DNA from: Candidatus Colivicinus equi
Lineage (GTDB): Bacteria > Bacillota_I > Bacilli_A > Erysipelotrichales > Erysipelotrichaceae
Direction of reading: 5' to 3'
Length of the DNA: 61,626 nucleotides
Assembly (NCBI GenBank): GCA_018064825.1
Contig: JAGHUL010000002.1
Span: 1-61,626, forward strand
Below are positions 25,715 to 39,471 of this stretch, in pieces (position 1 is the first letter of the stretch; each line of letters starts with the position of its first letter). A program made the position numbers and the translations under genes. Below the pieces are notes generated by a model. That model was not told the DNA's origin, did no database searches, and worked only from the letters and a program-made list of their open reading frames with translations.

Positions 25715-27103
25715 ATGGATGTAAATATAGCTGAAGGAAGAGAACAGTATCAATACGCTTTAAAGAAGGGACGTAAACAGTTTTTAACTGATCGTTATCA
25801 TCGCGTTGATCCTTATATAAAATCTCTAGATTCACTAGTAAATATCTATGAATGTGCGATAGTTGATATTGGCCAAATTGATGTTCCTGCTGAACTTATT
25901 GTGGGAACTGTTAATACGGATAGAAGAACGTCTTTTGCCAGTAATTTTATGCCAATTATTAGAGGCGAAAGTGAGTTTTCTTACAAGTGGATAAATGTAT
26001 GCTGTTATCACTTATCTGATTCGGGAATTGCGGATTCTCCTATTGCTTATGAATATTTAGGCAAATTCTATATCTCAGAAGGTAATAAAAGAGTTAGTGT
26101 ATTAAAATCATATGGTGCAGTTTTTATTCCTTGTGTTGTTAAAAGGGTCATGCCTAAAGACAAATATAGTTTTGAAGGTAAATTATATTATGAATTTTTA
26201 GAGTATTATAAATTATCAAAACTATATTCAATACAATTCAAGAAATTAGGATACTATAAAAAACTTCAAAGATTGATGAAATTAGATGAAGATTATGAAT
26301 GGTCAAGGAAAGACCGCATAACTTTAGTTGGTTTTTATGGACGTCTTGTCTCAATGCTAAAAAAGAAAAAGATTAATGTTTATTATCCTGATGCCTTGGT
26401 AGTTTTGATAGAGATATATGGTTACGAGTTTTTATCAGAGATGTCTGATAAGCAATTACTAAAAGCGATTGATGCGGTAAGAACTAAGATTATATATGAT
26501 AAAGCGTATACTAATATCTTAGCTATTTCTGATGAGGAAGACGATGCCTTATGGAATGGTTACAACAATAAATATCTTAAACAATTTGATCTAATAATTT
26601 CAGCAGGTGATTTAAAGGCTGAATATTTAGAATATCTTGTAACAGTTTCTAATAAACCTCTATTATATGTACACGGCAATCATGATGAGAAATATGATGT
26701 TAATCCTCCTGAGGGTTGTATTTGTATAGATGACGATGTCTATGTACATGATGGCATTAGAATACTAGGCTTAGGTGGTTCTTTCTTGTATCGAGATAAT
26801 GGCAAATATATGTATAGCGAAAGACAAATGGAACGTCGTATCCATAAGCTAAAACGTAAGATTAATAAAGTGGGTGGTATCGATATTGTTGTTGCCCATG
26901 CGCCTGTAAAAGGATATGGAGATCTTGAAGACATCGCACATCAAGGTTTTGCATGTTTTGTGAAGCTGATTGAAGATTATAAACCTAAATACTTTTTCTA
27001 TGGTCATGTGCATACGCGCTATTCTCATAATTATGTTGGTTATTATAAATTAGGTGACACGCAGATAATAAATGTATCTGATAAACGTTCTATCATCTAT
27101 TAA
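25715..27103 (+). CDS. ParB/sulfiredoxin-like domain fused to calcineurin-like metallophosphoesterase
   Basis: YISEGNKRVSVLKSYGAVFIPCVV (ParB-like) and DLIISAGDL, YVHGNHDE, VVAHAPVKGYGD, FYGHVHTRY (metallophosphatase). Confidence 0.75.
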   Translation: MDVNIAEGREQYQYALKKGRKQFLTDRYHRVDPYIKSLDSLVNIYECAIVDIGQIDVPAELIVGTVNTDRRTSFASNFMPIIRGESEFSYKWINVCCYHLSDSGIADSPIAYEYLGKFYISEGNKRVSVLKSYGAVFIPCVVKRVMPKDKYSFEGKLYYEFLEYYKLSKLYSIQFKKLGYYKKLQRLMKLDEDYEWSRKDRITLVGFYGRLVSMLKKKKINVYYPDALVVLIEIYGYEFLSEMSDKQLLKAIDAVRTKIIYDKAYTNILAISDEEDDALWNGYNNKYLKQFDLIISAGDLKAEYLEYLVTVSNKPLLYVHGNHDEKYDVNPPEGCICIDDDVYVHDGIRILGLGGSFLYRDNGKYMYSERQMERRIHKLKRKINKVGGIDIVVAHAPVKGYGDLEDIAHQGFACFVKLIEDYKPKYFFYGHVHTRYSHNYVGYYKLGDTQIINVSDKRSIIY

Positions 27104-27139
27104 CTTTTTATCGTATATTTGTTAAGATATATTACATGA

Positions 27140-27223
27140 AAGGATGTGAATTAAATTTGGGAGAAGAAAGTCCTTGCCCGAATTATCTGTATTGCATCAC
27201 ACTTCTAGATAGGAGTGTTTTTT
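27140..27223 (+). promoter_or_regulatory. Candidate riboswitch/attenuator leader of CNNM/CorC gene
   Basis: P1 GGATGTGA/TCACACTTC, P2 AATTTGGG/CCCGAATT, possible pseudoknot AAGGA/TCCTT, terminator ACACTTC-tagata-GGAGTGT-T6 sharing the P1 3' strand and SD. Confidence 0.55.
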
Positions 27224-28483
27224 ATGTCTAATTCATTGCTTATAATCTTAGTTGTTTTAGTGCTATGTTATTCTTTTTTTAGTGCTTCGGAAACAGCTTT
27301 TTCAAGTATGAATAAGATTAAATTAAAAGCTCTAGCAAATACAGGTAATGAAAAGGCACAAAAAACATTAGATTTATCAGACAATTTTACGAGTTTACTT
27401 ACAACAATATTAATAGGGAATACGATTGTTAATGTCGTTGCTGCATCATTGGCTACGGTTTTCTTTACTAGGATATTTAGTGAAGATGGAGTAGCTATCT
27501 CTTCAATCGTGATGACTTTGGTCATTATGATTATTGGTGAAATAGTACCTAAGACTATGGCGAAACATTGTCCAGAAAAATTCGCAATGTTTATAACGCC
27601 AATTCTTAAGTTATTAGTATTTATCTTTACGCCATTAACCTTCTTATTTAATAAACTTGAAAGTATTTTTTCTTCGCTATTTAAAGATGATGATGAAGGC
27701 TATAATACCGAAGAGTTTATTACTTTAGTTGAAGAGGCTAATGAAGATGGTGATTTAGAGGAACACGAAGCTGACTTAATTACAAACGCAATTGAATTTG
27801 AAGATGTCGATGTTTCTGAAATATTGACACCTAGAATCGATGTTATCGCTATAGAGCTAGGTGAAGATTCTAACACCAAGATTGAGAAGATGTATCGTGA
27901 ATCAGGTTATTCAAGATTGCCTGTTTATAAAGATAACATCGATAATATCATTGGCGTATTGCACGAAAAAGATTTCTATTACTATCTGCTTCATAAAAAG
28001 AACAATAAAAATGGTATTGAAACAATAATTCAGCCGGTAATATATACTCAACCGCAAGTTAAAGTATCATCGTTATTAAAAGAATTCCAAGCAAATAAAA
28101 CACATATGGCAGTTGTTTGTGATGAATATGGTGGTACTGAAGGCATTATTACAATGGAAGATATCTTAGAAGAGCTTGTAGGCGAAATCTATGATGAACA
28201 TGATGAAATAGTTGAATACTATAAGAAGCTTGATGATAAAACATATTTAATCAAAGCTGATTTAGATATTGACGATTTCTTTGAATATTTTGATGTTGAA
28301 AATAACGAAGAATATGATTTCAATTCAACATCAGCTTGGGTTATAGATGTTTTAGATAAAATACCAGATGTTGGCGATAGTTTTGATTATAAGAATCTTC
28401 ATATTGAAGTAACTGATGCTGATAACAAGAAAGTTAATGAAATTAAAGTTATTGTTAATGAAAAAGAGGAAGACAATGAATAA
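27224..28483 (+). CDS. CNNM (DUF21) plus CBS-pair plus CorC/HlyC-C domain transporter-like protein; start placed at ATG 27224
   Basis: SASETAFSSMNKIKLK, ILTPRIDV, SRLPVYKDNIDNIIGVLHEKD, CDEYGGTEGIITMEDILEELVGEI. Confidence 0.9.
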   Translation: MSNSLLIILVVLVLCYSFFSASETAFSSMNKIKLKALANTGNEKAQKTLDLSDNFTSLLTTILIGNTIVNVVAASLATVFFTRIFSEDGVAISSIVMTLVIMIIGEIVPKTMAKHCPEKFAMFITPILKLLVFIFTPLTFLFNKLESIFSSLFKDDDEGYNTEEFITLVEEANEDGDLEEHEADLITNAIEFEDVDVSEILTPRIDVIAIELGEDSNTKIEKMYRESGYSRLPVYKDNIDNIIGVLHEKDFYYYLLHKKNNKNGIETIIQPVIYTQPQVKVSSLLKEFQANKTHMAVVCDEYGGTEGIITMEDILEELVGEIYDEHDEIVEYYKKLDDKTYLIKADLDIDDFFEYFDVENNEEYDFNSTSAWVIDVLDKIPDVGDSFDYKNLHIEVTDADNKKVNEIKVIVNEKEEDNE

Positions 28484-28556
28484 ATATCGCTTCTTTGCTA
28501 GAAAACAATGACTGTAAGATTTATAATGAATGTATAGATAGAAAGAGGATAATTAT

Positions 28557-29306
28557 ATGAAAATTTACGTTGGAAGCGAGGAACAAATCGCTAAAAAAGC
28601 TGCTCAACAATATGTTGATTTATTAACTAAGAAGCCTAATGCTGTTCTTGGTGGCGCTACTGGTTCAACACCTTTAGGTCTATATCATGAACTTGCTAGA
28701 TTAAATAAAGAAGGTGTTATTACATTTAAAGATGTAACTACATTCAATCTTGATGAATATGTTGGTCTAGATGGTAGTCATGATCAATCATATCGTTATT
28801 TCATGAATCATAATCTATTTGATCATATCGATATCGATAAAGAAAGAACTCATGTTCCAGATGGTATCAATCTAGAAAATATCAAGACTTATGATAAAGC
28901 TATTGAAAAAGCTGGTGGCATTGATCTTCAAATCTTAGGTATCGGTGTTGATGGACATATCGCATTTAACGAACCTGGTACACCATTTGAATCATTAACT
29001 CACGTTGTTGAACTAGAAGAGAATACTCGTGAAGTTAACTCTAGATTCTTCAAGAGTATTGATGAAGTTCCTCATCAAGCTGTTACAATGGGAATCAAAT
29101 CAATTATGCATGCACGTTCTATTATCTTAATTGCTTTAGGTGATAATAAGGCTGATGTTGTTGAAAAGATGATTAATGGTCCAGTTGATACTGCTGTTGC
29201 TGCTTCTATTCTTCAATTACATCCTGATTGCACTGTATATCTTGATGAAAAGGCTGCTGCTAAGTTATTAGCTAGCGGTGCTGACGTCGAAATTGAAAGA
29301 ATTTAA
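28557..29306 (+). CDS. nagB: Glucosamine-6-phosphate deaminase
   Basis: GGATGSTPLGLYHEL, NLDEYVGL, QSYRYFMNHNLF, GIGVDGHIAFNEPG. Confidence 0.97.
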   Translation: MKIYVGSEEQIAKKAAQQYVDLLTKKPNAVLGGATGSTPLGLYHELARLNKEGVITFKDVTTFNLDEYVGLDGSHDQSYRYFMNHNLFDHIDIDKERTHVPDGINLENIKTYDKAIEKAGGIDLQILGIGVDGHIAFNEPGTPFESLTHVVELEENTREVNSRFFKSIDEVPHQAVTMGIKSIMHARSIILIALGDNKADVVEKMINGPVDTAVAASILQLHPDCTVYLDEKAAAKLLASGADVEIERI

Positions 29307-39237: not shown

Positions 39238-39266
39238 TTGCATTGTGAAAATAATGGAATTATAAT
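39238..39266 (+). promoter_or_regulatory. Promoter TTGCAT-N17-TATAAT for histone-like gene
   Basis: TTGCAT 39238-39243, TATAAT 39261-39266. Confidence 0.75.
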
Positions 39267-39321
39267 TTTTATGGAGATAAAAAATCTCTATTACAAAAAG
39301 AATAAGAAAGGGAAAATTATT

Positions 39322-39471
39322 ATGCCAGAAAAGAAAGTTGCTAAGAAAGCTACTACTGCTAAGAAGGCTGTTGCTAAGAAAGCTGCTCCTGCTAAGAAGA
39401 CAGTTGCTAAGAAAGCTGCTCCTGCTAAGAAAGCTACAGCTAAGAAAGCTCCTGCTAAAAAAGCTAAATAG
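39322..39471 (+). CDS. Histone-H1-like Ala/Lys/Pro-rich basic protein (49 aa; start placed at ATG 39322)
   Basis: MPEKKVAKKATTAKKAVAKKAAPAKKTVAKKAAPAKKATAKKAPAKKAK; SD AAGAAAGGG. Confidence 0.8.
   Translation: MPEKKVAKKATTAKKAVAKKAAPAKKTVAKKAAPAKKATAKKAPAKKAK

Follow-up and report, generated by a model that had tools for sequence, protein, structure and literature searches.

The acidic/proline motif of MgtL (EPDP) causes Mg2+-dependent ribosome drop-off, which occurs at low Mg2+ (PMC11282234), and in mgtQ the acidic codons at positions 2 and 5 have a similar effect (PMC8092293). The start codon of YoaL is needed for normal translation of MgpA, and its replacement lowers MgpA; CNNM proteins of the CorB/MpfA type export Mg2+ or confer tolerance to it (PMC12421838). 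Little is known of how Gram-positive bacteria turn on their Mg2+ exporters (CNNM/MpfA), and the open-access literature that we searched describes no leader peptide for a CNNM gene in Bacillota. Here we describe a leader upstream of a CNNM gene in the Erysipelotrichaceae that gives a concrete, easily tested mechanism and that corrects a false riboswitch lead at this locus. On balance, we favor a reading in which the leader encodes a translationally coupled, MgtL-like acidic/proline peptide whose completion would gate a Mg2+ exporter.

Results

The window, by which we mean the whole analyzed stretch of DNA (61,626 nucleotides of a Candidatus Colivicinus equi contig), contains a CNNM-CBS-CorC_HlyC transporter gene of the MpfA/CorB/PaeA-like type at 27224..28483; this and all features placed below lie on the forward strand. 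Domain matches to PF01595, PF00571 and PF03471 agree with the CNNM/CorC assignment made in an initial annotation of the DNA. By analogy, the gene product is a probable Mg2+ exporter, the direction of transport being carried over from CorB/MpfA. The Shine-Dalgarno sequence of the gene, GGAG (27212..27215), is recognizable in the sequence and falls in the 3' arm of a hairpin. Next downstream is a nagB-like gene (ATG 28557), before which a short ORF, LLENNDCKIYNECIDRKRIII (28495-28560), ends with a stop that overlaps the nagB-like start as ATGA. Elsewhere in the window, upstream of a threonyl-tRNA synthetase-like gene, 39238-39471 encodes a small Lys/Ala/Pro-rich repeat protein with AKKAAPAKKA repeats in 33-nt tandem units.

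We gathered CNNM orthologues from named genome contigs and from relatives of the same genus, family, order and class, and then read their leaders. The main set consists of 72 distinct Erysipelotrichaceae CNNM leaders, and the leaders called closest (n=21) are those with a CNNM N-terminal identity of at least 67%. Sequence and comparison with relatives revealed a leader-peptide ORF, MGEESPCPNYLYCITLLDRSVFYV, running from TTG to TAA at 27157..27231, with an alternative in-frame ATG start at 27136..27138. This ORF (27136/27157-27231), overlooked in the initial annotation, is the conserved element of the leader. It has its own Shine-Dalgarno sequence, AAAGGATGTGA (27139..27149); likewise, AAAGGATGTG(A/T) precedes the GTG or TTG starts of the relatives L025, L039 and L020.

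The leader ORF is in a different frame from the CNNM gene and overlaps the CNNM ATG at 27224 by 8 nt, as ATGTCTAA. Its end always lies at +4, +8 or +11 relative to the CNNM start, though the reading frame varies between species. The arrangement is that of overlap coupling, with a stop codon at or just past the next start and the next Shine-Dalgarno sequence in a hairpin, which is found in the genus and is weaker outside it. From this anatomy, translational coupling between the leader and the CNNM gene appears likely. A programmed frameshift that fuses the leader ORF to CNNM was also considered; it would need +1 or -2 in the window and was rejected as a conserved mechanism because the relative frame differs between species.

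Within its first ~10 codons the leader ORF contains acidic and proline codons, as in MgtL-type leaders. Specifically, the window peptide carries the motif E-E-S-P-C-P (27163..27180), which is conserved in relatives with the family pattern [DE]-x-P-[LI]-[PS]; the window version is slightly degenerate, with SPCP in place of VPLP, and the leader peptide of the relative L026 reads MEETPLPR. The peptide matched no known family in Pfam or NCBIfam. When the pattern [DE]-x-P-[LIVCSY]-[PSCAT] near the ORF start was counted, an overlapping ORF with the early motif was present in 42 of the 72 leaders and in 21/21 of the closest ones; dinucleotide-shuffled leaders yielded 0.03 motif ORFs per 72. This strict pattern mostly misses the leaders of genus g51, in which TTG frequently precedes Asp/Glu codons and the overlap is ATGA (e.g., L139, LDDSIPP...). 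Overlapping ORFs that carry two acidic residues and a proline early on were found in 37/72 CNNM leaders versus 0/~260 other genes at the same loci; 14 control rows with such an ORF turned out to be CNNM genes and were left out of the control set. The corrected Fisher p is about 2e-29 with relatedness ignored, and both this value and the codon counts given next overstate independence because the sequences are related.

Differences among the motif codons fall mostly at the third position (1086:545:1927 for positions 1:2:3), and those in the four codons after the motif are flat over the positions (2180:2106:2183). Since the [DE] and P columns of the comparison are fixed by the search pattern itself, which is no issue for the 21/21 closest leaders, independent evidence comes from three sources: variation at third positions, the presence of the motif in 21/21 closest leaders and the flat profile of the downstream codons. 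These data describe a short upstream ORF under coding selection, as expected of a leader-peptide regulator, and the ORF is almost certainly a genuine coding sequence. They also indicate that selection at the protein level is confined to roughly the first 8 codons, which specify one or two acidic residues, any residue, proline, Leu/Ile and Pro/Ser. Such conservation near the N terminus could be read as the mark of a microprotein with a function of its own, such as a transporter partner, instead of a cis-acting leader. However, the constraint stops after those codons, the C-terminal two thirds lack codon bias and even change frame (L018, L087), and the ORF always overlaps the CNNM start, all of which renders a microprotein highly improbable.

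The composition of the motif bears on what the peptide might sense. It has Pro, Leu and often Cys, the last at P+3 in 19/42 motif leaders, and a coupled leader peptide could in principle report a condition other than Mg2+, such as charging of Pro, Leu or Cys tRNA, EF-P or ABC-F activity, or translation capacity. MgtL-type motifs respond to EttA too (PMC11282234), and reportedly also to EF-P. Nevertheless, there are few codons per amino acid (1-2 Pro, 1 Leu), the acidic residues are well conserved and are not required by classical tRNA attenuators, and the downstream gene encodes a cation transporter, not a member of a biosynthetic operon. We therefore consider a signal other than Mg2+ unlikely.

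The position of the motif is relevant to a further possibility, that of an arrest-peptide attenuator, in which a ribosome stalled on the motif, and not drop-off, would set the state of the hairpin. The early motif is Pro-rich, and in the core genus (Pro at -43, hairpin from about -24), placing the motif Pro in the P site would leave the ribosome close to the 5' arm of the hairpin. Across leaders, however, the distance from the motif Pro to the CNNM AUG varies from -40 to -70, unlike the geometry of a position-dependent stall, and the Pro is residue 4-9 of the peptide, whereas arrest usually needs a longer nascent chain. Stalling of this kind seems quite improbable to us, and drop-off is the reading that we carry forward.

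The initial annotation had called for a transcript starting upstream of 27140, and a dedicated promoter-like sequence is indeed predicted just 5' of that position. A promoter scan gave a candidate extended -10, TGTTAAGAT (27120..27128), with a predicted transcript start at about 27134-27136; a candidate -35 hexamer, TTAACT (27100..27105), is visible in the sequence 17 nt before the -10 and is weak by consensus (4/6). As scored, an extended -10 (TGnTANNNT) precedes the leader ORF in 41/42 motif leaders, and the remaining one, L085, also reads TGTTAAAAT, the scan having picked another site there. The spacing falls into two classes. In the first, the -10 lies 7-11 nt before an ORF start that is always ATG and has no Shine-Dalgarno sequence, so that these leaders are predicted to be nearly leaderless; in the second, it lies 24-37 nt before an ATG, GTG or TTG start that has a Shine-Dalgarno sequence. 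The window offers both options, namely the almost leaderless ATG, 7 nt after the -10, and the Shine-Dalgarno-led TTG. Among the leaders of the core genus (L003-L018, L085-L093), the predicted ORF start lies 1-5 nt past the transcription start, is always ATG and has no Shine-Dalgarno sequence, which makes these leaders a candidate set of leaderless leader peptides.

Folding and comparison place a hairpin, ACACTTCT-AGAT-AGGAGTGT (27199..27218), over the CNNM Shine-Dalgarno sequence, followed by T6, so that it resembles a weak terminator. Its 8-bp stem has 3 GC pairs and a folding energy of -7.8 kcal/mol, and it beats shuffled sequences (z -3.2, 2/200); relatives often have just T4-5. Within the genus, 85% of cells are paired over 26 sequences, compared with 40-56% for slid versions. 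Five of the 7 pairs have both partners changed in one or more sequences, a count equaled in 58/500 shuffles, and this covariation is modest, with the 3' arm constrained anyway as a Shine-Dalgarno sequence. Several relatives outside the core genus have a weak hairpin or none.

The initial annotation had interpreted the same region as a new ion- or metabolite-sensing riboswitch in which P1 (GGATGTGA, 27142-27149, with TCACACTTC, 27197-27205), P2 (AATTTGGG, 27154-27161, with CCCGAATT, 27177-27184) and a pseudoknot (TCCTT, 27171-27175, with AAGGA, 27140-27144) compete with the terminator. All letters and coordinates that it quoted are correct, and its terminator-like hairpin holding the CNNM Shine-Dalgarno sequence is real. 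P2 is likewise a good hairpin in the single window sequence (z -3.0, 2/200 shuffles), but it is absent from relatives, and in the window it overlaps the TTG start of the leader ORF. P1 as drawn has a pairing probability of about 0.00 in the ensemble. P1 and P2 together reach -9.1 kcal/mol, versus -15.4 for P2 with the terminator and -24.5 for the minimum free energy fold, whose outer helix differs from P1 (27143-27149 with 27192-27198). Because that helix leaves the terminator hairpin intact, the proposed ON-switch layout, in which P1 and the terminator exclude each other, finds no support in the folding; P1 does not compete with the terminator.

The pseudoknot, also absent from relatives, would pair the Pro codons of the leader ORF with its Shine-Dalgarno sequence and probably arises as a side effect of coding. 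Folding, together with an alignment of the most similar leaders, detected no conservation of P1, P2 or the pseudoknot in the relatives' leaders, and the upstream regions of the relatives fold no better than shuffles. The comparison of orthologous leaders that the initial annotation had suggested thus shows an aptamer structure that is not conserved; what is conserved is coding, not structural. Searches of Rfam returned no match in the whole window at gathering thresholds and no meaningful match in 26900-27400 at relaxed thresholds, in line with the initial annotation, which could not match the element by eye to several known riboswitch classes. Taken together, the Rfam searches, the folding of the window and its relatives and the leader alignment led us to reject the riboswitch, which we regard as scarcely credible. 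The broader claim of a cis-regulatory leader before the CNNM gene fares better: one is probably present, in the form of the leader ORF and the Shine-Dalgarno hairpin, but no aptamer is supported.

Forty CNNM leaders sampled from other orders contained no acidic/proline leader ORF, and no leader ORF resembling that of the window was seen in the same-order family f2. A divergent CNNM paralogue from another genus of the family (L174) has a short ORF, MTETSDPLSRLCNRRGDDLC, that overlaps its start. A regulon search of the same genome with a degenerate DNA form of the motif found 6 sites, as many as the reversed control did, and none of the 6 motif-pattern sites was an obvious leader ORF of a gene; the pattern would miss the window's own degenerate motif, which makes this weak evidence. 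Other Bacillota CNNM proteins often start with MDPS, MEPG, MDSD or MPDGSVPL (L042-L082 from Clostridia, L162-L173 from the same order, L185-L224 from the same class). An acidic/proline N-terminal pattern occurs in 20/38 Clostridia CNNM rows versus 20/298 other proteins, uncorrected for relatedness, and these early codons may simply be part of the protein.

Discussion

Because the leader ORF overlaps the CNNM start and resembles MgtL, translation of the leader probably decides whether CNNM is produced. We picture the leader as a short dedicated transcript whose main content would be an upstream ORF of about 20-30 codons, which, beyond its motif, would merely stay open across the hairpin that hides the CNNM Shine-Dalgarno sequence. 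A ribosome that completes the leader peptide would melt the hairpin and terminate on the CNNM start, so that CNNM would be translated by coupling. If the ribosome instead falls off at the acidic/proline motif, the hairpin would reform and CNNM would remain untranslated; drop-off may in addition let transcription end at the weak terminator.

The likeness to MgtL, mgtQ, CorC and YoaL leads us to propose that low Mg2+ causes drop-off and leaves the exporter unmade. Low Mg2+ would destabilize ribosomes on acidic/proline nascent chains and turn the exporter off, and since such chains would be completed at high Mg2+, the exporter would be made only when Mg2+ is plentiful. By analogy with these systems, we lean slightly toward ribosome drop-off with Mg2+ as the signal. 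If the proposal is true, nascent-chain sensing of Mg2+ extends beyond Enterobacteria, and the same sensor has been wired with the opposite sign, with an exporter on at plentiful Mg2+. More tentatively, a nascent-chain switch that senses Mg2+ and controls a Mg2+ exporter might have arisen in the Erysipelotrichaceae independently of MgtL and with opposite sign; the same type of codons lies inside the CNNM protein of other Bacillota, and ribosome destabilization could accordingly serve CNNM/CorC exporters widely as a direct sensor, a broad reading to which we give somewhat less than even weight.

Among known systems, MgtL of Enterobacteria is alike in its early acidic/proline nascent chain, to be compared with MEETPLPR of L026, and in its short ORF before a Mg2+ transporter gene, mgtA. 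It differs in that mgtL ends about 140 nt before mgtA, whereas the CNNM leader ORF overlaps the transporter start; in that mgtL acts through mRNA refolding and Rho (PMC11282234), whereas here a hairpin hides the Shine-Dalgarno sequence; and in that drop-off turns an importer on, whereas at the CNNM leader it should turn the gene off. The locus falls outside the MgtL family proper (before the mgtA P-type ATPase, separate start, Rho read-out), as its gene is CNNM and its ORF overlaps, and peptides this short allow no claim of homology. Similarly, mgtQ, in the mgtC-mgtB intergenic region of Salmonella, is a short ORF with early acidic codons whose translation controls the ribosome-binding site of the next gene (PMC8092293), but aborted translation promotes mgtB, which is the opposite sign, and the read-out is through alternative stem-loops. 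CorL is the leader ORF of another Mg2+ transporter gene, corA, and responds to Mg2+ (PMC11552253); it differs in that corL translation represses corA through Rho, in the gene concerned and in its fewer acidic and proline residues.

The remaining two systems concern genes closer in kind to CNNM. The YoaL leader ORF of Enterobacteria overlaps the start of yoaE/mgpA, a CorC-domain gene that protects against Mg2+ excess (PMC12421838), an overlap that is seen in the sequence; however, YoaL has 52 residues and no early acidic/proline motif, and YoaE has a TerC membrane domain, not CNNM. E. coli CorC (YbeX) is encoded by a Mg2+-exporter-related gene whose own early codons, MSDDNSHSSD, reportedly destabilize ribosomes, and its expression is expected to rise with Mg2+ (both discussed in PMC12421838); unlike at the CNNM leader, the destabilizing sequence is in the protein itself and not in a leader ORF. 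The overlapping leader peptide described here belongs to a known general kind, upstream-ORF control of Mg2+ transporters, but the way it combines target, overlap and predicted sign is new.
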